A DNA stretch of 38,942 nucleotides from Pirellulales bacterium (GCA_028289525.1 JANQPJ010000093.1:1-38942); one strand, 5' to 3'. Shown: positions 1-32,481, counted from the stretch's first letter. Program-made: numbers and translations. Notes: generated from the letters alone by a model not told the origin.

Positions 1-1729
<1,729 letters not shown>

Positions 1730-18251: not shown

Positions 18252-18261
18252 GCTCCAGGCC

Positions 18262-18351: not shown

Positions 18352-19155
18352 ATGCAATCTACTCAATTCACGTTACACAACCTGCGGCGCGTGCTAGCCG
18401 GAGAGCACCCGGTTACCGGACAATACAGCACCGACGCGGCCACCGCGCGCGACCAGATCAACGCAGCCAATATCCCGGTCACCAAGCCGATCAGCTCCGC
18501 CGAACTGCTTTCCTGGTCGGCTCTGAACGGCCGCAAACGCAACATCGAAGCCGCCGCCGCGGGCACCGTCCCGAATGTCGGAAGCTTGCCGCCTGGCGTG
18601 ACGGTCGAATTAGTGCAGGACGTGGCCTCGGCCGCTTCGCTGTTGATTCGACGTGACTCCACCGAACTCGACTTGAGCCTACCTGATCGACAGAACATGT
18701 TGGGCCTGCTGGTCGCTGGAGGCGTGTTGACTCAAGCCGATTCTGACAGCCTGATCCCCCTGGCCGCCGATGAGCCGATCAGCCATGCCACGCAACTCAC
18801 CTGGCCCCGGGTGCCGATCAGCCTGATCCGCCAAGCGATGGGTGATGCGCCAATCAACCAGAAGACGTTGCCCCCCGGGCATGTAGCTCAGGTGCGGCTG
18901 ATAACGGAAGAGGGCGTGCAGCCGATCGAGCACTACGGGGCTGTCACTGCCACTGATCCTGCGGTGCCAAATCTACTTGGTGCGTGGGATGATCTTCTTG
19001 AGCTACTGGCAATGCTCAATGAGATGGATGGCTATTTGGTAATTTTCGAGCCACTGGCCAACTTCGACCCTGGGCAGCCGAATCAGCCGTCGTTGGTCGC
19101 CGATAATCGCGAAGCGCAATGGGCAGAATTTGATGACGAGGCTTTGAATTTCTGA
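18352..19155 (+). CDS. Hypothetical phage structural-region protein
   Basis: The 267-residue product has a start right after repeat R1. Residues 1-60 look like DARDQINAANIPV and SSAELLSWSALNGRKRNI segments, residues 100-150 have LPDRQNMLGLLVAGGVLTQADSDSL, a pattern I have seen in phage proteins of unknown function, and the C-terminal half ends in DDEALNF. The last residues and the stop codon are supplied by repeat R2, so the original C-terminus may be lost. Codon use looks more GC-rich than in the capsid genes, which fits a separately acquired cassette. No function is assigned. Confidence 0.65.
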   Translation: MQSTQFTLHNLRRVLAGEHPVTGQYSTDAATARDQINAANIPVTKPISSAELLSWSALNGRKRNIEAAAAGTVPNVGSLPPGVTVELVQDVASAASLLIRRDSTELDLSLPDRQNMLGLLVAGGVLTQADSDSLIPLAADEPISHATQLTWPRVPISLIRQAMGDAPINQKTLPPGHVAQVRLITEEGVQPIEHYGAVTATDPAVPNLLGAWDDLLELLAMLNEMDGYLVIFEPLANFDPGQPNQPSLVADNREAQWAEFDDEALNF

Positions 19156-19240
19156 TTTCTGATTTGGAATTTAGGATTTGACGGACGCGCTCACGCGTAC
19201 CACTCACCACTCAACACTCACTAACAACCAACGAAAAACG
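19143..19240 (+). repeat. Intergenic repeat family R, copy 2
   Basis: Runs from CTTTGAATTTCTGATTTC through GGAATTTAGGATTTGACGG, ACGCGCTCACGCGTACC and a CACTCACCACTCAACACTC run. It overlaps the last four codons and stop of the gene at 18352. A further partial copy (GAATTTCTGATTTG plus TTCGGATTTCGGATTTAG) follows at about 19286-19326. Confidence 0.85.
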
Positions 19241-19337
19241 AATGACCAAAACGCGAACGCGCGTTGTTTGGAAAATTTAGACATTCGAATTTCTGATTTG
19301 TTTCGGATTTCGGATTTAGAATTTCGTGCTTGAAACC

Positions 19338-21161
19338 ATGCCAGAAGCTACCAACCAATTCGACAACGCCACTGGCCTGACCCTGGAGCAATCCGAGGTT
19401 GCCGCCGGCGTGCTGCGCAACGCGGAGATCGTGGCCGGCCAGTTCCAGGCGATTGGCCGGACGACCAGCGGTGACGTGCTCAGTGGCCTAGACGTTGAGT
19501 CGGTGTCTAGCCTCGACGGCGTGATTGCCAGCAAGCCGGCCGGATCAACCATCCGAATCCAGGTGAGCAGCGACGGCGTCACATTCACCAACGCTTTCGG
19601 CGAAGACTGCACGAACACCGGGGCGTTTACTCTTGATGGCGTGAACGACTATCTCGGCATCGACGCGCCATTTCGGACCGCCGACCAATCTGGGGCGGTG
19701 TCAATGTGGGTGCGGTATACGCCAGGCGGCGGAAGCTGGATCTGGATGAACGGGGCGTGGACAAACAACGGCAATCGAGTCGAGACCTGGATTGTCGGTG
19801 CCGCTGGGTCGCGATCAATTGACCTGCGGGTAACCAACAGCACGACGATCAATATTGGAAATCGGGTCAGGACACCCCCTGGCTCGATCGTCGCCGGGCG
19901 CTGGCATCACGTCATCTGGATTTCGACAGGCTCCAGCTACGTAATCTTGATTGATGGCGTCCTTCAGCCGCTGTCGGTCATCAGTGGCAGCAACAACGGC
20001 TCTTGGTTTAGCGATTGCGTGAACCTAGACCGCTGGACGATCGGGGCGCAGCGCAAAAACTTCAAGACACAGTTTTATTTCGGTGGCGACATCGACGATG
20101 TGCGAGTGTTTAGTCAGGCTCCGACGACCGAGCAAGCCAAGGACTTCTTCTTTCGCCACAAGACGCCCCCGGGCCAGGTAAATCGCTGGCGATTCGATGA
20201 GATCGACACGCCGGCCGTGGGGCAAACACCTGACGCGGTCGGTACGGCACACCTTACGATCGTGGGCGCTCAGCACGAGACGGACTGGCGAGAGTTGCCA
20301 GTGTTCGGCGAAGCGGTTGGCACGCTCGACACCCTCGCGCTTGATGGCGTGAACGACTACGTCGACATATCACATTCCTCGCTAAATATCGTTGGCGATC
20401 TGACCGTCTCGGCGTGGATCAATCCACGGAGATTTCCGACCTCAGGCCATGCCATGGCCGTCAACCAATGGTCTGCGTCGACCGGCACCAATTTTTACAT
20501 TGCGTTCTTGGAGACGTTTGGTTGGGATTTATGCGTTCGATCTGGCAACGGAGGAAGCGGCGGTTCGACGATTTTGCATACTCCGATCCCGCTGAACGCT
20601 TGGACCCACGTCGTTTTGCGCCGCGAAGGCACGACACTTACTTTGTTTGTCGACGGCCAGTTGATCGACTCGACGGACATCACTGGCTTCCTGGGCGGGA
20701 GCGCGAGCGCTACTTGGATAGGCCGGTTTAGCAGTGGTACCTATCACTTCGATGGCCTGCTGGCGAACGTGTCCGTGTGGGCGAGCGGTCTCAGTGATAG
20801 CCAAGTACAAACGCTGTCTAGCCAGGGCCACCGAGGTGGCTTGCCAACGCCTTTGGGCGAGTGGAGAGCCGATGAAGGCGCCGGCACGATACTCAATAAC
20901 CACGGCACGGCCAGCAACCAGGGCTCGATTGTCGGCGCAACCTGGACCCAGCGGATCGACCGACCGGCACCGAGCGCCGAGAGCTGGTCGATCGACGTCA
21001 GCGGGGCAGGGCTGACCAATAGCGCGTTTTGGCGTGTGCTGATGATGGCCGTCGCCGACGATCGCACGGCCGCGCTCGATGAACTGAGCGTGGTCTGCGA
21101 GACTTCAGTTGGTTTGCCGCTATCGGTGCTGGTGAGCGGGCATTACGCGGGGGCAGTCTGA
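19338..21161 (+). CDS. Twin LamG-like jelly-roll protein of the phage module
   Basis: The start ATG (MPEATNQFDNATG) lies four codons inside the track ORF, whose GTG is part of the repeat. Residues about 97-275 form a first LamG/concanavalin-like jelly roll (FTLDGVNDYLGI, WHHVIWISTG, ILIDGVLQ, DDVRVFSQAP). Residues about 333-500 form a second one (LALDGVNDYVDIS, VSAWINP, WTHVVLRREGTTLTLFVDGQ, ANVSVWASGLS), and a third start-like piece is near LGEWRADEGAG. Such domains bind glycans or act in adhesion, so a role in host or surface recognition on the particle is likely but inferred. The stop is provided by repeat R3. Confidence 0.8.
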   Translation: MPEATNQFDNATGLTLEQSEVAAGVLRNAEIVAGQFQAIGRTTSGDVLSGLDVESVSSLDGVIASKPAGSTIRIQVSSDGVTFTNAFGEDCTNTGAFTLDGVNDYLGIDAPFRTADQSGAVSMWVRYTPGGGSWIWMNGAWTNNGNRVETWIVGAAGSRSIDLRVTNSTTINIGNRVRTPPGSIVAGRWHHVIWISTGSSYVILIDGVLQPLSVISGSNNGSWFSDCVNLDRWTIGAQRKNFKTQFYFGGDIDDVRVFSQAPTTEQAKDFFFRHKTPPGQVNRWRFDEIDTPAVGQTPDAVGTAHLTIVGAQHETDWRELPVFGEAVGTLDTLALDGVNDYVDISHSSLNIVGDLTVSAWINPRRFPTSGHAMAVNQWSASTGTNFYIAFLETFGWDLCVRSGNGGSGGSTILHTPIPLNAWTHVVLRREGTTLTLFVDGQLIDSTDITGFLGGSASATWIGRFSSGTYHFDGLLANVSVWASGLSDSQVQTLSSQGHRGGLPTPLGEWRADEGAGTILNNHGTASNQGSIVGATWTQRIDRPAPSAESWSIDVSGAGLTNSAFWRVLMMAVADDRTAALDELSVVCETSVGLPLSVLVSGHYAGAV

Positions 21162-21299
21162 ATTTCTGATTCCTGATTTGGAATTTGAGCCACGGATTAA
21201 CACGGAGAAAAAGTTTTTGGTCATTAGTGGTTGGTTGTTAGTACGCGCTAGCGCGTTCGTCAAATCCTAAATTCCAAATCAGAAATCAGAAATTCAAAG
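21160..21299 (+). repeat. Intergenic repeat family R, copy 3 with inverted ends
   Basis: The left end GAATTTCTGATTCCTGATTT overlaps the LamG stop codon. The right end (21259-21299) is the reverse complement of the same module, AAATCAGAAATCAGAAATTC. Between them lie the CACGGATTAACACGG motif and the palindrome ACGCGCTAGCGCGT. The whole looks like a short inverted-repeat element. Confidence 0.85.
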
Positions 21300-24275: not shown

Positions 24276-25097
24276 GTGGCGATCGATTTTGAAGAATTAC
24301 AAGGATCGCCCAGGCTTCGGATTGGACAAGGCGAGAGCATCGCACAGCGTGTCTTTCGGGTTGCCTGGGACGACTGGCAGGCGTTTAGTGAGTCACTGGT
24401 CGGTGGCTGGCGAGAAACCGGTGGTGCCTATACTTATCTGTCGCCGATTGCTTTTCCAGGGCTTTCGCAATTTTATGTCGACGACCTGGAGATCGATCCA
24501 TTCGATCCCGGCAACCCTGTTGGCGATCAGGTAGAGTCCGTGGCTCGCGGCACCAATATCTATCCAGCAGCCGGCGCACGTGTCACGGCAACCTATCGCG
24601 CTCGGGGCACTGCCCGACTCAGGGATCAGCCACCCATCCAGGAAGGCACGTTTCTGACCTATCAAGCCCATGTCGGGGTCGATCAGTCCGTGGCGCCAGG
24701 CAGAGATTGGGTATGGGAAAGTGATACGGCAAAATTGCCTGGCGACATGAATCTTAGTCTGTTGGTGCCGATCGGCACCTTTTCGCTCACGTGGCACATG
24801 GTGGCCCGCCCTCCCTGGCAAGCAATACGTCAGCTACGAGGCCAGATCAACAACACGCCATTTCTGGATGTTGCAGCGGAACGGGTGCTCTTTCTCGGCG
24901 CGCGTGTGCGAAGAGAGTTCGAGTTTCTCGACCAGTTGAGTCGATGGGTCGTTACTTATGAGTTTGCTGAGCATGTGAGTTCGTGGAACCAACTCCGGCG
25001 TCCCGGCGTCGGGTTTGCCAGGATTGAAGACGCGGTGAGTGGGGCGACTCCCTACGAAAGCGGTAACTTCGAGGCGCTCTTTCAGTTTGGTTCGTAA
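24276..25097 (+). CDS. Hypothetical phage structural protein
   Basis: I chose GTG 24276 (MAIDFEELQG) because GGAAGG lies 8 nt upstream; the GTG at 24267 overlaps that site. The 273-residue protein is Trp- and Arg-rich and strand-rich: RVFRVAWDDWQAFSESL, GGAYTYLSP, ARVTATYRARGTARLRDQP, FSLTWHMVARPPWQAIRQLRGQINN and a late RREFEFLDQLSRWVVTYEF. No family is recognised. It lies just before the last gene of the run and might be a baseplate- or neck-like protein. Confidence 0.65.
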   Translation: MAIDFEELQGSPRLRIGQGESIAQRVFRVAWDDWQAFSESLVGGWRETGGAYTYLSPIAFPGLSQFYVDDLEIDPFDPGNPVGDQVESVARGTNIYPAAGARVTATYRARGTARLRDQPPIQEGTFLTYQAHVGVDQSVAPGRDWVWESDTAKLPGDMNLSLLVPIGTFSLTWHMVARPPWQAIRQLRGQINNTPFLDVAAERVLFLGARVRREFEFLDQLSRWVVTYEFAEHVSSWNQLRRPGVGFARIEDAVSGATPYESGNFEALFQFGS

Positions 25098-25110
25098 GGA
25101 GGCATTCAAA

Positions 25111-26460
25111 ATGCCAGTTTCTAGAGATCGCAACCAGCGAACGCTGGATGAGCATGACACGATCCAGCCTTTGGAGATCAATGCTGTTCCACCAGTTGAA
25201 CTGCAGCAGACGCCACTAGGAATGAGCGTACGGCTTGCTCATGCCCCTGGCTTGAAGCACGTGGTGCTCAAAGAAGATGTTCCGGCAAGCGCCGCCGACA
25301 AGACCTCGGCCGTGTTAGGCTATGATCCTGTTGCTGGTCAGTTTGTCGACACGGTCGATAGTCCGGCCTTTAGCAACCAAGTGTGCGCCAAAACGGCCGA
25401 TCCACAAGATGCCGGGCTTTATCTCAAACATGAGCGGCATGTTTGCTATTACGATCCCCAAAGCGACCAATACCTTCCTGTGGCGGGGCCGGCATGGCAC
25501 CTCGGGAAGACCGACGTGGCCATCGCGGCAGGGGGGGCGGGAACGGTTTCGATTTGGAAAGCCGATCTCGACGACGAGGATGTCGACAGCGACACCAGCG
25601 AGGCGATTGATTCAGGATGGGATGTCACGGCCACCGACTTCTTCGGACGCGGACTGCCAGGCGACACCCTGGTGATGGTCTTTTTTCATCATCAGTCTCG
25701 CTCATGGTATGTCTTGCGAGCAGCCAGCGACGTGATTCGATTCAAACTGATAGGCAGCCTGCAGGCAAACGGGACGGCGCTTGGCCAGCAAGTGACTTGG
25801 AACGGCTCCGCCTATGTGACTGTTGGCGCTGAGATTGGCCTGGTCGATCCAACTGGGTTGTTAGGGCCGGCCGCTCTAGGGGCCGTGGGCTGGGCAGTGC
25901 GCAGCCCAGACCGTGGCAAGGTCACCCTGAATCTGCCCGATCCGCCTGGAGACGCAGTGGAGTATGATTGTTACGAAATGGTGTCACTGGAAGGACAGGC
26001 ACGGTGGATTCGGGCTACGCTTGTCGAAGATCTCGGGCAAACCACCGTAGGCATGGCAGCCGCCACGGTCGTTGAGCATTGGGGACATCCAGCCATGGGC
26101 GATGCGCCTGACATGAGTCCCGGAGGAGTTACAGTAGTCGATGCCACGGGATTGTTCGCGCGGGCTCTGGCAGGCGCAGACTGTCAGGCAGTCCTCTACG
26201 AGCAGGACAATCAATATCACTTGGTGCACTGTGAACAACAGACCACGATGTATTTGGGGCAGATCGACCAAGCCGGCGGACTTGCTCATACCGACTTGAC
26301 GGTCCCGGTTGATGGCCTCACGGCTGTGAATGGACAGGCTCAGGTTGCCACGACACTTACGGCCAGCAACACGTTCTCTCTGGCTGCCAACGACAATGCA
26401 AAGTGTTTGGTCATTTGGAACGATTCCGAGCAGACTTGGGAGTTAGTCCAAGTCGCCTAA
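25111..26460 (+). CDS. Large hypothetical phage protein, last of the operon
   Basis: The start is ATG 25111 (MPVSRDRNQ) after a perfect AAGGAGG; the track start is inside the previous gene. The 449-residue protein is made of several beta-rich segments, such as VLGYDPVAGQFVDT, HVCYYDPQSDQYLPV, AASDVIRFKLIGSLQANG and TTMYLGQIDQAGG, with a C-terminal AKCLVIWNDSEQTWELVQVA. Strand repeats of the YDP..QF kind suggest a multi-domain fibre- or spike-like protein. No membrane or catalytic motif is seen. It is directly followed by repeat element E copy A. Confidence 0.65.
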   Translation: MPVSRDRNQRTLDEHDTIQPLEINAVPPVELQQTPLGMSVRLAHAPGLKHVVLKEDVPASAADKTSAVLGYDPVAGQFVDTVDSPAFSNQVCAKTADPQDAGLYLKHERHVCYYDPQSDQYLPVAGPAWHLGKTDVAIAAGGAGTVSIWKADLDDEDVDSDTSEAIDSGWDVTATDFFGRGLPGDTLVMVFFHHQSRSWYVLRAASDVIRFKLIGSLQANGTALGQQVTWNGSAYVTVGAEIGLVDPTGLLGPAALGAVGWAVRSPDRGKVTLNLPDPPGDAVEYDCYEMVSLEGQARWIRATLVEDLGQTTVGMAAATVVEHWGHPAMGDAPDMSPGGVTVVDATGLFARALAGADCQAVLYEQDNQYHLVHCEQQTTMYLGQIDQAGGLAHTDLTVPVDGLTAVNGQAQVATTLTASNTFSLAANDNAKCLVIWNDSEQTWELVQVA

Positions 26461-26553
26461 AGCAAGTTGCTTTTTACCGTAGCGGACGTGACCAGCGTTT
26501 TCGCCGAGGTTTTCCGACGAAACGTCAATGCGCATTTTGGTAGTTTGCTCTAA
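26458..26553 (+). repeat. Stop-codon-adjacent repeat E, copy A
   Basis: Begins at the TAA stop of the previous gene (TAAAGCAAGTTGC), contains AGCGTTTTCGCCGAGG and TTTTCCGACGAAAC, and ends TTTGCTCTAA. The ends are near-inverted repeats. Confidence 0.8.
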
Positions 26554-26727
26554 ACCTGGAAACGGATAAGAAATCAGGTGTCCTAGCGATTCGAAAGAGC
26601 CATGACAGACAGGTGTCACTCGGTCGACCTAGGAATGGGTTAGAGCAAAATAACTTGCTCGCATTGGGTGTCGAAATGCACGCCTTTGGGGGGTGATTTC
26701 TGGATGGTGGAAGAGGTTAATAACGAA

Positions 26728-26955
26728 ATGAGTGAGCAAACACACGTTGTCCATTGGGTCCATTTTTTTTCAGGAACACGTTTCTTGGGATCGCTCCCTC
26801 ATGTGCTCAGCAAACAGACAGCGCAGGCGTTTGTTGAAAGCTATAACCGCATCAACGGTCAAACAGGCCGGCGGGCTGAAATTGAGCAGCAAGAGATCCC
26901 GGTTCCGAAGCGACCATATCGGCTGCCTCACGCCTTCCAGCGGCCTGGCCATTAG
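26728..26955 (+). CDS. Hypothetical 75-aa protein
   Basis: I chose ATG 26728 (MSEQTHVVHWVHFF), which follows an AGAGG about 11 nt upstream; ATG 26704 would add eight residues and has a GGGGGGT upstream. The product has an amphipathic start (HVVHWVHFFSGTRFLGSLPHVL), a helix (SKQTAQAFVESYNRIN) and a basic, Pro-containing end (PVPKRPYRLPHAFQRPGH). No family is recognised. It lies between two copies of repeat E, so it could be a short accessory gene or a remnant. Confidence 0.45.
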   Translation: MSEQTHVVHWVHFFSGTRFLGSLPHVLSKQTAQAFVESYNRINGQTGRRAEIEQQEIPVPKRPYRLPHAFQRPGH

Positions 26956-27050
26956 AGCGAGGCGTTCTTTACCATCGCGCACGTAACAAGCGTTTTCGCC
27001 AAGGTTTTCCGACGAAACATGGCTACGAAATGATTCGAAATTGCTCGAAT
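26952..27050 (+). repeat. Stop-codon-adjacent repeat E, copy B
   Basis: Begins TTAGAGCGAGG at the stop of the small gene, shares CGTTTTCGCCAAGG and TTTTCCGACGAAAC with copy A and ends imperfectly (TTGCTCGAA). Confidence 0.8.
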
Positions 27051-27166
27051 GCGTGGGGAAGAGTTTGCCAGGGATGCGATGCCATCATCCAGGCGAGGGC
27101 GATGCCTCGATAGGTGGAGGGCGAGAATGTCTTAGCTTCTGCTTTCAGAGGAGCCAGCAGAAGAAG

Positions 27167-27240
27167 TGGGTGTGCGAGGATTCGAACCTCGGACCTCGGC
27201 CTTATCAGGGCCGCGCTCTAACCAACTGAGCTACACACCC
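27167..27240 (-). tRNA. tRNA-Ile (anticodon GAT)
   Basis: The reverse complement gives acceptor GGGTGTG paired with CACACCC, D-arm TAGCTCAGTTGGTTAGAGC, anticodon arm CGGCC-CTGATAA-GGCCG with GAT, T-arm GAGGTTCGAATCCTC and discriminator A; CCA is not encoded. It reads on the minus strand toward tRNA-Ala and 23S. Confidence 0.96.
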
Positions 27241-27622
27241 GGTGGCGGCAGTCGTTGTCGCTGCCAAAGCGTGCCATTTTAGGCGATCTTTCTAGACTGT
27301 CAAACGTACTTGGTATGGCCACGAAACGACTGCAAAGTTCAGGCAAAGTTCAGGGACTGGTTCAATTTTCGGCCATTTGGCTTTGAATTCACCAAGAAAC
27401 GTTGGCCGAAAACTTGGGCCTGAACCTCTTTTGTCTCGCAGATTTGCCATCGCAACAGCCCGTCTACCCCGTAATCGTTCTAGATGGAAAAACCGGCATG
27501 ATTCGGTGATGTCCTGCTGGTTCTTTGTCCGATCGTAGAACTATGCGCTTCTGACGCGCCTGTCAGAGAGGTCGCCATTGAGGTTATGTGAGTTGAATTC
27601 TGCCCCATCGAGGATCAAACCG
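27241..27622. other. Intergenic region between tRNA-Ile and the thioredoxin-like gene
   Basis: About 380 nt without a gene. Two CAAAGTTCAG-type repeats (27330-27350) are visible. It must hold the promoters of tRNA-Ile (minus) and of the thioredoxin-like gene (plus), but I see no convincing consensus pair. Confidence 0.4.
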
Positions 27623-29527
27623 ATGCATTTGGCATGCTGTCGTTGGTTTTTTTATTCCGCTCTGGTCGCGTTTGGGGGGCTTGCCGATTCAACGGTCTAC
27701 GGAGCTTCGCCTACCGCCCAGCAGGCACTCCGTTTAACCCCCATCCAAGATGGGGTTCCCTACGACCAGGCAGGCGATGTTGATGTAAAAACTTGCACGA
27801 TTCGCGCCGAGAAGGTCGATGGCCAAACAGGCTGGATTGTGCGTACCGCCGACGGCCAAATCTTGCGACGGTTCGCTGACACCAATGGCGACAACGTGGT
27901 CGATAGTTGGAGTTATTACCAGAGCGGTCTAGAGACGTATCGCGATATTGATGCGAACTTCAACGGCAAGGCCGACCAGTATCGGTGGTTTCATACCGCT
28001 GGTGCTCGTTGGGGCCTCGACCAAAATGAAGATGGGCGGATTGATCGCTGGCGATTCATCTCGGCCGAAGAAGTAGCGGCCGAAGTGATCGAGGCACTCA
28101 AGAAACGCGACACTCAGCGGTTTACCTCGCTGATATTGACCTCAAAAGAACTTCAATCACTCGGCCTAGGGGCTAATCGCGAAAAAGATCTGGCGGCTCA
28201 GATCAAGGCGGCCCCGCAAGCCTTCAAGACACTCATCGCCCAGCAAAAACAAATCTCCTCGGCGACCAAGTTTTTAAGCTTTGGTGGTGCTCAGCCTGGG
28301 CTGGTGCCTGCGGGGACCGCCGGTTCGAGCAAAGATCTGGTGGTCTATGAAAACGTGGCGGCATTGGCCGAGACGCAAGGGAAGTCCCACCAAGTGAATA
28401 TCGGCACACTGGTATCGGTTGGTCAGGTGTGGCGGCTGATCGGCGTACCGCAAGTCGCCAGTCACGACGAGTTGGCTGCCAGTGGATATTTTTTCCAGAC
28501 TTCGCTGCGCCGGACCGCGGGGCTTGAGCCACAACAGCCGAGCGGACCGACTGAAAAAGTTCAGCAAATGATGAACGAACTAGAGCAGCTTGATCGCAAA
28601 GTTACGGCGGCTACGCCTAGCGAACAGCAGAAGTTCAATGCTCAGCGGTGCGACTTGCTAGAGCGTTTGGCCGAGGCCTCCAAAGGAACTCCCGAGCGTG
28701 CCCAGTGGGTACGCCAAATGGCCGATATGGCGAGTGCGGCGGCTCAGTCGGGCAACTTTCCGCAAGGGGTCGAGCGTCTGAAAGACTTAGAGACGCAGCT
28801 TAACAAGTCCAGGGAAGACAAGCCGTTGTTGGCCTATGTCAAGTTTCGGCGGCTATCGGCCGACTACGGCTTGGCGCTTCAGGCTCCGAAGGCGGACTAT
28901 GCCAAGATTCAGGAGCAATGGCTCGGCGACCTGGAAGGGTTTGTCGATGCCCATCCTCGCAGTCCTGATTCGGCCGAGGCAATGTTGCAATTGGCCATCA
29001 CCCACGAGTTTGCCGGCGACGACGACCAGTCCAAATCGTGGTACAGCCGAATTCTCAAAGAGTTTCCGACCGCGACTCCCGCCAAGAAAGCGGCCGGCGC
29101 CAAACGCCGTCTGGAGTCCGTTGGCAAAGCAATCCCGTTGCGCGGGCGAACCATTCGGGGCAAAACCCTCGACCTAGCCCGTCTGCGTGGCAAAACGGTT
29201 TTGATTCAATACTGGGCCACCTGGTGCGAGCCATGCAAGGCCGACATGGTCGAACTGAAAAAACTTCAGGCACGCTATGCCAAGAAAGGCTTTATTGTCC
29301 TGGGAGTTAATCTGGACAATGAGCCGCGTGACTTGGTGACGTTTCTGAAAAAGAATCCACTGCCTTGGCACCAACTCTACGAGCCAGGCGGGCTGGAAAG
29401 CCGCTTTGCCAACGAGATGGGGATTCTAACCTTGCCGACGATGTTTCTCGTCGATGCCAAAGGCCGAGTGGTCAACCGCAACATCCATGTGGGTGAGCTA
29501 GAGACCGAACTGCGGAAGCTTCGCTAG
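27623..29527 (+). CDS. Exported TlpA/ResA-like thioredoxin with DxDxD repeats
   Basis: The start is ATG 27623 after GAGGA (spacing 8), 15 codons inside the track ORF. Residues 1-28 form a signal peptide. Residues about 65-135 contain three calcium-loop-like repeats (DTNGDNVVDSW, DANFNGKADQYRW, DQNEDGRIDRWRF). The middle is helical with tetratricopeptide-like pieces (VDAHPRSPDSAEAMLQLAITHEFAGDD). The last 135 residues are a TlpA/AhpC-type thioredoxin: TVLIQYWATWCEPCKADM with CxxC active site, then VLGVNLDNE and a cis-Pro LTLPTMFLVDAKGRV. Likely a periplasmic disulfide reductase or oxidase; the target is unknown. Length 634 aa, well above the bare family, because of the N-terminal extension. 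Confidence 0.88.
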   Translation: MHLACCRWFFYSALVAFGGLADSTVYGASPTAQQALRLTPIQDGVPYDQAGDVDVKTCTIRAEKVDGQTGWIVRTADGQILRRFADTNGDNVVDSWSYYQSGLETYRDIDANFNGKADQYRWFHTAGARWGLDQNEDGRIDRWRFISAEEVAAEVIEALKKRDTQRFTSLILTSKELQSLGLGANREKDLAAQIKAAPQAFKTLIAQQKQISSATKFLSFGGAQPGLVPAGTAGSSKDLVVYENVAALAETQGKSHQVNIGTLVSVGQVWRLIGVPQVASHDELAASGYFFQTSLRRTAGLEPQQPSGPTEKVQQMMNELEQLDRKVTAATPSEQQKFNAQRCDLLERLAEASKGTPERAQWVRQMADMASAAAQSGNFPQGVERLKDLETQLNKSREDKPLLAYVKFRRLSADYGLALQAPKADYAKIQEQWLGDLEGFVDAHPRSPDSAEAMLQLAITHEFAGDDDQSKSWYSRILKEFPTATPAKKAAGAKRRLESVGKAIPLRGRTIRGKTLDLARLRGKTVLIQYWATWCEPCKADMVELKKLQARYAKKGFIVLGVNLDNEPRDLVTFLKKNPLPWHQLYEPGGLESRFANEMGILTLPTMFLVDAKGRVVNRNIHVGELETELRKLR

Positions 29528-29618
29528 AGCGAGCCGTTCTTGGCCATCGCGGACGCGACCTAGTCTTTGCCGAGATTTTCCGACGAAACACGACTACGAA
29601 TGCTCGGAAATCGCTCTA
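29525..29618 (+). repeat. Stop-codon-adjacent repeat E, copy C
   Basis: Begins with TAGAGCGA, of which TAG is the stop of the thioredoxin-like gene, and ends TCGCTCTA, a perfect 8-bp terminal inverted repeat over 94 bp. The core is TTTTCCGACGAAAC. Confidence 0.85.
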
Positions 29619-29673
29619 AGGCAAAACTTCGCTACATGAGGGCGGGAACCCCCCGCCCATTGGTTTGCAGAGC

Positions 29674-29856
29674 CTACCAGCTCCAGCGTCGATTGCGGCG
29701 CTGACGAATCCCGCCAGGGGCATTTTTGACTTTGCGTGAGCGTTGGCGGCCTGCCGAAGGGCTACCAGTACGCTGAAATTGCGCTCGGGTTGAGGTCCGA
29801 GGGCTTTTGTGGACGAAGAACTCTTCCTCTGCCTTTTCAACGTCGTAGCACACCAT
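29674..29856 (-). CDS. Small basic protein, 60 aa
   Basis: AGAGGA lies 8 nt before the ATG on the minus strand. The product begins MVCYDVEKAEEEFFVHKSPR, an acidic segment followed by an Arg/Lys-rich tail (RQRSRKVKNAPGGIRQRRNR). The overlapping 74-codon frame (29616..29840) is its shadow. The basic tail suggests nucleic-acid binding or ribosome association, but no family is recognised. Confidence 0.5.
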   Translation of the reverse strand: MVCYDVEKAEEEFFVHKSPRTSTRAQFQRTGSPSAGRQRSRKVKNAPGGIRQRRNRRWSW

Positions 29857-30908
29857 TAGTCCATTCCTCTCGTTGCTAGGGGAGATAAAAGCTGCCTGCC
29901 GATTCAGGTGACCACCAGGGCATTTCCCTGATAGCTGAGGCAGTAAAAAGCAACGGGTGTGCCAAACCCTCGAACGTTGACTGTCTACACGGTTGATATG
30001 CCAGTAGGTGCTAAAAAGCCACCGATTTTCAGCCGAAAAAAATCTTGATGGACCAGCAAACTCTTCTGCTGGTCTCTAAACGCGTTTTTCGCCTCTCCCT
30101 GTTTCGAGGATGCTTGCGTGCTCTCGATGAAAACGCTTTCTAGATCAAGACTTACGGCCGATGTCGACTCAAGCCCTGAGCGATTGGCTCTGGAAAGAGT
30201 TTGTATGCGAAGTCCGTAAGTCATTTCTGTAAAATGGCTTAGCGCAGTAGTCACCATTCTGGTGAGGCCGATTCACAAAAATAGTGAATCACCGTCTCGG
30301 CGGTGCCGGCGGGAGGAGAGTTAAGACTGAGCATGAGGAGCGCGCGAATTTCCCTTACAGCAGATGCATGAGAAGCCGGGCGAGGTGGTTAACACGGTCC
30401 AATCCCATCAGTCGTTTTAGCCAGATGGCGGGGCATTTTCAGCCTACGAAAAAGCCGTATATGCCCTAGAAACCAAGGCAATCGGGCATCAGCATCTAGC
30501 CAAGAAACGCACCGCGACACGATGTGCCCGGTTTAGGTAGACCGCAGGGAAGTTGCGATTAGCGTTTCCTCAGAATCTGGCTGGCGTGTTGGCCACGTGG
30601 GGTGAAATGGGCCAGGCGAGCCGCTCTGCTAGCGGATTGCCTGATCGTGTGTTTGTAATTTATGCAAACTCCGTGCCAAAAAATACGCTTCCAATTCGTT
30701 GCCAAGTTCTTGGAAAGATTTTTTAAAGTTCTTTTAAGTGCTTTTTGAGCAATGGTTTATCGTCGATTCTTGGGGTCGGTATTTAAAGGGCGGGAAGAGT
30801 TTGGCATGTAAATCGCTTTTCATTTTGTATAGATTGTCGACCCCGCCCGGCAAGGATGTCGAGGGCTTGCTCGACCGGAAATGGAATTCCTTCTTGGAGC
30901 ACATCATC
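29857..30908. other. Long non-coding stretch with small hairpins
   Basis: About 1 kb with no supported gene; the ORFs 29985..30257 and 30284..30469 have no ribosome binding site or protein-like composition. Visible structure: stem GACCAGCA/TGCTGGTC (30051-30074), inverted GACTTACGG/CCGTAAGTC (30149-30222), and three small hairpins in a row at 30251-30300 (TCACC-GGTGA, GATTCAC-GTGAATC, ACCG-CGGT). A GGAGGAGAG-like purine run follows. It may hold a structured RNA or only regulatory DNA. Confidence 0.4.
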
Positions 30909-31193
30909 GTGGATTTCTCGCAGTGTTTGGAGTGGATGCCTACGGTTTGGACGCTAATTCTTGTACAGACATTAGGGCTAGGCAGTGCGCTGCTGGCGCG
31001 AATTAGCGAAGGATCTTCCCGGCAAACACCTTGCCAATGTGTGTTCATGCTGGCCATGGCGGTGGTGGGGCTAGCCACGATTTTCTCTTTTTGGCTCAAT
31101 GTCGGCGGTTGGTTTCTCTCTGGGATCACGCTTTCGATCATGGTCGTAGCCGCGACCTGGGATTCTCGTCACGGGGCGACCGTGACTGTCTAG
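30909..31193 (+). CDS. Small membrane protein
   Basis: I chose GTG 30909 (VDFSQCLEWMPTVW). The protein has three hydrophobic segments, TVWTLILVQTLGLGSALLA, CVFMLAMAVVGLATIFSFW and WFLSGITLSIMVVAATW, with short loops. The track ORF's N-terminal extension is unlikely to be real. ATG 30935 is another start (MPTVWTLIL) with GGAG close by. No family is recognised; repeat E copy D follows the stop. Confidence 0.5.
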   Translation: MDFSQCLEWMPTVWTLILVQTLGLGSALLARISEGSSRQTPCQCVFMLAMAVVGLATIFSFWLNVGGWFLSGITLSIMVVAATWDSRHGATVTV

Positions 31194-31286
31194 TTCGGGT
31201 CGAACTGAACTGTAGCGTCTCTCGCGCTTTGATTTCCAACGTTTTACGACGAAACAACGCTACACTTACGCTCGCATCTGCTCTAA
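31191..31286 (+). repeat. Stop-codon-adjacent repeat E, copy D (diverged)
   Basis: Begins at the TAG stop, with GTTTTACGACGAAAC in place of the core, then CGCTACACTTACGCTC and an end CTGCTCTAA. Similar to A-C in core and end only. A partial inverted copy of the core (TTTTCGTCGGAA) lies at about 31374. Confidence 0.55.
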
Positions 31287-31545
31287 AGGGCAAACCGTCT
31301 TATAAAGCCCCAGCTCCCGTTGTGCTGGCAGTGCTGTCGCGGTTGTGGCCGTTCGCTACACGTTTTCGCGCCTTTTCGTCGGAAGATCGGCAAAATCGAA
31401 AAAAAGTTCCTATTCGGTACAACCAGTAACCGAATACGTTCTTAGAGCCGATTTTCAAAGCAAGGCAGATCAGACACCGGTGTGATGCGAGTGTCAGGCT
31501 GCCGCGCTTCCGATGCGAAAAATCGTTTTTCAGGAGGGTAACAGG

Positions 31546-32343
31546 ATGCGTGGCCTTTTGCTTGGCATGACAATTGTTTTAAGCGGGACGGGAATGTCCG
31601 ACTTCCTCCATGCAGGAGAGAAGGAGGATCGAGCGTTGGCCAACAAGGTTGCCCAAAACCTGAAGACCGGCGGCCAACTCAAGTCCTACGAGATTGGCGT
31701 GATGTGTCGCGAAGGGACCGCCTGGCTCAAGGGCACGGTCACTTCGCAGCGTCAGGCCAGCTTGGCGATTCAGCAGGCTCGTCAGACCGAAGGCGTGAAG
31801 TTCGTCGTGGATCTCATCGAGATCAAGCCGCCAGCGGCCAAGCAGGTAGCCCATCATCAGCCGCCGCAACGGCCAACAACGTCTGCGAAACAACAAGCGG
31901 TTCAAGAGCAAGCGGCCTCGGCGATCGCCAGCAAGCGGCTACAGGTTAGCGAACCGATTCCTGCGACCAGCAACCAGCAAGCGGACTTGCGTCAGGTGGC
32001 CCATCAAGCTCTGGCTGCCCGTCGCACCAATACTCCGTTGCCCTATGGAAGAACGGCCAATCAAGTCACACCAGTCGGTTATGGTCAGCCGCTGCCGGCC
32101 CACGTCCCTGGTCCCGGTCGGGCTCGACCAATCCGACACGATAGCCCCCAACTGCCTGGCTATGCATGGCCCAGCTATTCACCCTATCCCAACTACGGCG
32201 CGTTGTCCTATCCCAAACAGTACTCGCCGACTGCCTGGCCGTATATTGGTCCATTCTATCCGTACCCTCAGGTACCGCTTGGGTGGCGTAAGGTCACGCT
32301 CGAATGGGACGATGGCTGGTGGATGCTCGACTTCAGAGACTAG
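31546..32343 (+). CDS. Exported BON-domain protein with Pro/Tyr-rich C-terminus
   Basis: The start is ATG 31546 behind AGGAGGGTAACAG; the track start lies upstream. Residues 1-25 form a signal peptide (LLLGMTIVLSGTGM...HAG). Residues 27-85 are a BON domain (DRALANKVAQNLKTGGQLKSYEIGV, EGTAWLKGTVTSQRQ, VKFVVDLIEI), usually lipid- or surface-binding. The middle is Gln/Ala/Pro-rich and low complexity, then Pro/Tyr-rich (SYSPYPNYGALSYP). The end WRKVTLEWDDGWWMLDF is a Trp-rich tail that I associate with planctomycete cell-surface proteins. A strong terminator follows. Likely periplasmic or outer-envelope. Confidence 0.85.
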   Translation: MRGLLLGMTIVLSGTGMSDFLHAGEKEDRALANKVAQNLKTGGQLKSYEIGVMCREGTAWLKGTVTSQRQASLAIQQARQTEGVKFVVDLIEIKPPAAKQVAHHQPPQRPTTSAKQQAVQEQAASAIASKRLQVSEPIPATSNQQADLRQVAHQALAARRTNTPLPYGRTANQVTPVGYGQPLPAHVPGPGRARPIRHDSPQLPGYAWPSYSPYPNYGALSYPKQYSPTAWPYIGPFYPYPQVPLGWRKVTLEWDDGWWMLDFRD

Positions 32344-32444
32344 AAGCGGTGGAGAGTTTAGGGTGGAGGGTGGAGGGAACGCGCTCGCGCGTACCACTCA
32401 CCACTCACCACTCACCACCTACCACCTACCACTCACCACCTACC
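32344..32444 (+). repeat. Intergenic repeat family R, copy 4, with heptamer array
   Basis: Starts GAGAGTTTAGGGTGGAGGG (reverse complement of the CCCTCCACCCTTCACCCTAA part at 21300), then ACGCGCTCGCGCGTACC, then about eight CCACTCA/CCACCTA heptamers. It lies between the BON stop and its terminator. Confidence 0.8.
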
Positions 32445-32481
32445 AAAAACCCTTGCACGAAAAGATCGTGTGAGGGTTTTT
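32445..32481 (+). terminator. Rho-independent terminator after the BON gene
   Basis: AAAAACCCTTGCACGA pairs with TCGTGTGAGGGTTTTT (16 bp with two G-T) around the loop AAAGA; the run of T serves as the tail. On the minus strand AAAAACC would also give a U tail, so it may work both ways. Confidence 0.88.

Follow-up and report, generated by a model that had tools for sequence, protein, structure and literature searches.

A family of probable IS630-related miniature elements located at stop codons and 3' gene ends in a Pirellulales bacterium

The window analyzed here, the whole 38,942-nucleotide stretch of DNA from a Pirellulales bacterium (GCA_028289525.1, JANQPJ010000093.1:1-38942), carries four related copies of a short repeat, all on the plus strand, and each copy opens at the T of the TAA or TAG that closes an open reading frame (ORF). 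Copy A (26458..26552, 95 bp, flanked as C-TA...TA-A) belongs to subfamily A (TAAAGCAA...TTGCTCTA), and its first three bases are the TAA stop codon of ORF 25039-26460. Copy B (26953..27048, about 96 bp) starts on the TAG stop of ORF 26668-26955 and has a decayed right end (GCTCGA), copy C (29525..29618, 94 bp) starts on the TAG stop of ORF 27578-29527 (649 aa), and copy D (31191..31285, 95 bp), a member of a diverged subfamily (TAGTTCGGGTCGAACT...GCTCTA), starts on the TAG stop of ORF 30738-31193. The ORF ended by copy C has a redoxin/TlpA-like domain (Pfam E value, 4.5e-19); the ORFs ended by copies A (473 aa), B (95 aa), and D (151 aa) had no Pfam match and are thus less certain genes. The first-pass annotation had reported the four copies and their starts at stop codons, and both observations held, with three of the starts as it gave them but copy B at 26953 rather than 26952. 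The shared core that it described, TTTTCCGACGAAAC (29576..29589 in copy C, plus strand), is exact in three of the four copies, but copy D has TTTTACGACGAAAC, a single change; at up to two mismatches, the window holds six core matches compared to 0.41 expected. A longer motif, GTTTTCGCC followed by GG, had been assigned to all four copies and is present only in A and B; copy C has GTCTTTGCCGAGA, and the diverged copy D is without the motif. The last A of the reported TCGCTCTAA falls outside the element, which ends CTCTA; this A is target flank, and A or G is found there at other copies. The perfect 8-bp terminal inverted repeat of copy C (TAGAGCGA...TCGCTCTA) was confirmed. Two possible decayed remnants were also observed, one palindromic and left-end-like at 26640-26665 (TTAGAGCAAAATAACTTGCTCG) and the other a minus-strand sequence at 31345-31390 (TCTTCCGACGAAAA) that adjoins copy D. 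Elsewhere in the window lie the 5' portion of a bacterial 23S rRNA gene (1-1729, minus strand), cut by the contig end, and a pair of 87-nt inverted repeats (19142-19228 and 21213-21299, 83% complementary) that flank a 611-aa ORF (19326-21161) and belong to a larger repeat set with more copies at 18257 and 32343-32450.

The core is a genuine repeat, with 107 exact matches (57 forward and 50 reverse) across the 4.04-Mb genome of this bacterium (425 contigs, 95.5% complete) compared to 0 for a reversed-pattern control. An unbiased 219-kb sample contained 10 copies, which corresponds to about 180 per genome, and a model search of the same genome recovered at least 151. Within an alignment of 100 core copies taken from fetched loci, the unit was 94 bp long in 68 of 79 complete copies (range, 93 to 101), with the start TA(A/G)AGC(A/G)A and the usual ends TTGCTCTA or CTGCTCTA. 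Terminal inverted repeats of 6 to 8 bp (TAGAGCRA/TYGCTCTA) occur in most copies, with one mismatch in subfamily A and only weak repeats in subfamilies T and D. The left end varies by subfamily (TAGAGC, TAAAGC, TAGTGC, or TAGTTC), and the right end is constantly GCTCTA. The element contains no gene, and the earlier suggestion of a miniature element was right. The unit is sharply bounded and recently mobile, with groups of 21, 9, 7, and 3 identical copies. Contigs often end inside the element or at its edge, as is expected of a repeat.

The target of insertion is YTAR, mostly CTAG. A pyrimidine precedes and a purine follows the TA pair in 106 of 106 junctions, distributed as C..G (65), C..A (25), T..G (10), and T..A (6). 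The purine at the left is constant within a subfamily and the one at the right differs by site, which argues that only the TA is duplicated; on the same grounds, a 4-bp (YTAR) duplication was rejected. Empty paralogous sites read YTAR with a single TA, and the TA is thus duplicated on insertion. The host repeat of one copy (L029) has more than 20 empty copies that read CGCGGCTAGGGGCAAACAG or nearly so, and another copy (L008) has an empty counterpart at L044:5063 (94.6% over 92 bp). The empty site of copy C was probably CTAA, in which case insertion turned a TAA stop into TAG. The flanks are asymmetric, with 25 C..A junctions compared to 10 T..G (p = 0.017), and this counts against a fully symmetric reaction, which would not give such a difference. 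Separately, a host repeat, CCCCGGCGACGCGTCGCGTCGCGGCTAGGGGCAAACAGAAGCTTGCAACC, is dispersed in more than 20 copies in this genome (e.g., L075:1589-1676 and L101:4442-4527) and hosts some of the insertions.

Among 147 genomes of the order, matches at E <= 1e-6 occurred only in G000, in G001 of the same family, and in G111 of another family. The G001 form (TAGTTCGAGTCGAACT...) is close to copy D of the window, and the G111 form (TAGAGCATCTTGCTCT...) has the same architecture, with intact copies between Y-TA and TA-R. A search of open-licence literature returned no planctomycete description of this element family. We found no IS630 transposase (DDE_3) and no DUF4096 (IS5-type) match in the 95.5% complete genome of this bacterium. 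The DDE_3 result counts against the IS630 reading; a mobilizing transposase would normally accompany an active family, but membership does not depend on one, and a multicopy IS may be missing from an assembly of 425 contigs, or it may have been lost. One partial DDE_Tnp_1 match has unrelated ends and surroundings, the IS630 elements of G111 and G139 were rejected as partners because their ends differ (TAGTGCTTTGTCACA and TAAATCACCGTG), and a pattern scan of named genomes gave no match. A search of relatives with the left-end pattern picked out a set of repeated contig ends in G103, which code for a transposase C terminus adjoining TAGAGCAACTTACTTTTTT, and a query with the G103 peptide led to complete copies in Adhaeretor mobilis HG15A2 (G107), also of the Pirellulales. 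The copy at L206 593-1616 is a 1024-bp IS630 element (DDE_3, E = 1e-24; NF033545, E = 7.4e-32) whose transposase probably lies in two frames joined by a frameshift, and its ends are TAGAGCAACTTACC.../...GTAAGTTGCTCTA, flanked as C-TA...TA-G. The right end of the miniature element agrees with this IS630 at 13 of 18 non-TA positions (0 of 20,000 shuffles), and the left end of the G111 form agrees at 14 of 18; the left end of subfamily D does not match (4 to 5 of 18). Given that the G103 lead came from an end-sequence search, we retested IS630 relatives found by protein only. TAGAGC was present at the left end of 25 of these 35 relatives, GC(T/A)CTA was present at the right end of 29, and 23 had both, which is the pattern CTAGAGC...GCTCTA. 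ISY100, another member of the IS630 family, was shown in vitro to insert at TA and to duplicate it (PMC2170065). Since the termini, the target, and the TA duplication all match IS630 (Tc1/mariner), we conclude that the element is very probably a non-autonomous MITE family of the IS630/Tc1-mariner type. The same genome also contains a second MITE family flanked by TA (L028, L014, L079, and L111), with terminal repeats of about 20 bp (TAGAGCGTATTTCAAAACC...GGTTTTGAAATACGCTCTA) and ends that resemble alphaproteobacterial IS630 copies (TAGAGCGTTTTCCG).

The first-pass annotation had also considered a 3' RNA structure formed by pairing of the partner strands. Covarying hairpins do exist, but they are not a pairing of the two ends of the element, which we rejected as a conserved structure because, within the main family, the ends do not covary. 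In an alignment of 20 diverse copies from three genomes, the left hairpin (columns 2-7/11-16) has double-sided changes in 4 of 6 pairs with 95% of cells paired; in copy C, it occupies 29526..29540 on the plus strand (AGAGCG-AGC-CGTTCT, columns 2-16). A second stem (columns 21-28/68-75) has double-sided changes in 4 of 8 pairs with 86% of cells paired. Double-change cells overall numbered 46 compared to 20.8 +/- 3.9 after shuffling, and covariation was 0.345 compared to at most 0.093 for slid versions, figures that overstate the independent evidence because the rows are related and the second stem was picked after inspection of the alignment. RNAalifold, unaided, recovered only the left hairpin. 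The core forms part of a third helix, which is conserved with zero double changes, and the 3' part of the core (CGAAAC) could pair weakly with an upstream GTTTTCG-type sequence. A palindrome bound by a protein could give the same covariation as a hairpin; the right end stays of the TAGAGC type as the left palindrome changes, and this favors a fold over a protein site. A tentative reading, which we regard as possible though on the unlikely side, is that both covarying hairpins are functional and that the left end is recognized or protected in a folded, single-stranded form instead of serving as a plain terminal repeat. The fold might act in DNA during transposition or replication or in RNA after read-through, with the left-end sequence drifting while the hairpin stays. 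A covarying hairpin at the end is unusual for a DDE-type element and open to testing.

The copies do not lie at random positions, the outcome that the first-pass annotation had named as refuting its reading, but the cause is other than stop targeting. We rebuilt the empty site for 70 copies and applied the same ORF caller to all YTAR sites in 258 kb, a crude caller (at least 100 codons, no coding model) that makes all fractions approximate. The rebuilt sites comprised 44 non-coding, 18 stop, and 8 coding positions, compared to 416, 66, and 772 in the background. Insertions were depleted inside ORFs (8/70 compared to 63% of YTAR sites; p = 4e-18). When gaps were split by orientation, with a caller version whose background held 62 stops and 790 coding sites, the ratio of convergent to divergent gaps was 16:2 compared to 43:77 in the background (p = 4e-5). 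Together, the depletion of copies from divergent gaps and that from ORFs suggest that selection acts as the sorter. The copies at stops lie in the same orientation as the gene in 10 cases and in the opposite orientation in 6, and the other 2 (L062 and L082) each occupy a TA common to two convergent ORFs and terminate both. Read in the TAR frame, YTAR always gives a stop, and the element opens with TAA or TAG (TAG when inverted), so insertion at a stop preserves the stop. Target shape plus purifying selection explains the location at stops, and targeting is unneeded. Elements on stop codons can thus be understood without a special mechanism, given that a YTAR transposon with TAR ends regenerates the stop.

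We weighed three other explanations against this one. The first-pass annotation had proposed a miniature element that targets stop codons, and a transposase or partner that actively seeks stops or 3' gene ends would account for the 2.1-fold excess of stops over non-coding sites (18/62 non-coding-or-stop copies at stops compared to 13.7% of such YTAR sites; p = 0.004). This excess vanishes only against 3' intergenic sites: the ratio of stops to convergent gaps was 18:16 compared to 62:43 in the background (p = 0.55), meaning that insertions do not favor stops above convergent intergenic YTAR sites, and the scarcity of copies in divergent gaps indicates that selection does the sorting. With YTAR at all 106 junctions, stop targeting is unsupported, and we consider it very improbable. 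A 3' RNA element that the host retains at the ends of genes, whether a terminator, stabilizer, or processing site whose mobility is merely historical, is improbable as well. It would fit the common 3'-end positions and the finding that the left hairpin and the inner stem covary between subfamilies and between the three genomes. However, 21 identical copies lie at unrelated sites, 44 of the 70 copies are non-coding and away from stops, and the hairpin is not followed by a conserved U-run (in subfamily T, the sequence there is GGGAC). Rfam, which in the window gave only the 23S rRNA and two tRNAs, has no match for the element. The occurrence of stop copies in both orientations, two of them serving convergent genes, makes the element ill suited to the role of terminator or 3' stabilizer that had been suggested for it.

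Hairpins that are kept by structure rather than by sequence, unequal ends, and some asymmetry of the flanks would also be at home in a single-stranded-DNA HUH element of the IS200/IS605 or RAYT/REP type, with a left hairpin beside the cleavage site, an internal hairpin, a fixed right end, and insertion after YTA without a true duplication. Five Y1_Tnp genes are present in the genome, and one copy of the element overlaps the start of a short Y1_Tnp locus (C42). None of the five Y1_Tnp/RAYT loci is bordered by element ends, however, and they were rejected as partners; the ends match IS630 elements instead. Moreover, the 3' flank is a purine in 106 of 106 junctions; the target is thus fixed on either side of the TA, whereas in IS200/IS605 elements only the 5' side is read. 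We therefore think it unlikely that the element is of the HUH type, even though GTAG REPs likewise give flanking ORFs their TAG stops (PMC3733652).

The family is new within a well-known kind of element, the IS630-related MITEs, and has about 180 copies in this planctomycete and named IS630 relatives. Under the IS630 reading, a transposase acting in trans would have moved the copies by excising an element of about 92 bp at its TA-flanked ends (TA plus hairpin at the left, GCTCTA at the right) and reinserting it into the TA of YTAR, with CTAG preferred and the TA duplicated. An insertion at a stop codon would leave the protein unchanged, selection would purge those in promoter gaps or in other parts of genes, and copies would build up at stop codons and in the intergenic gaps 3' of genes. 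The unequal ends, variable at the left and GCTCTA at the right, are odd if one transposase must bind both.

The nearest counterpart in the literature is RUP of Streptococcus pneumoniae, an IS630-Spn1-related MITE of about 107 bp in about 108 copies (PMC2229807). RUP is likewise a non-coding repeat with a short terminal inverted repeat, a TA target, well-conserved recent copies, and ends that also occur on an IS630 element (PMC2229807), but it differs in sequence and phylum, and the YTAR target, the covarying left hairpin, and the absence of the partner IS from the assembly are particular to the element described here. The Adhaeretor IS630 with CTAGAGC...GCTCTA (L206) shares the terminal TAGAGCAA(n)TTACC, the YTA...TAR junctions, and the order, and differs in being 1024 bp long with a DDE transposase, whereas our element is geneless. 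Correia/NEMIS and ERIC are also small, structured, and mostly intergenic with TA termini, but their sequence is unrelated, the Correia terminal inverted repeat is 24 bp, and the portion of the source consulted mentions no YTAR/CTAG preference (PMC2229807). The GTAG REP/RAYT system is similar in its palindromic, high-copy repeats, whose termini often supply the TAG stop of a neighboring ORF, but a REP is 20 to 40 bp with a GTAG tag and a tyrosine transposase (PMC3733652), and no RAYT is bounded by the element here. In the same genome, two palindromic repeats of about 80 bp (L092, 1247-1325 and 1961-2044; AAAAGCAGCGGCCG...CGTTTCGCGAG...GCTGCTTTT) flank a Y1_Tnp-like ORF and possibly form a REP/RAYT unit.
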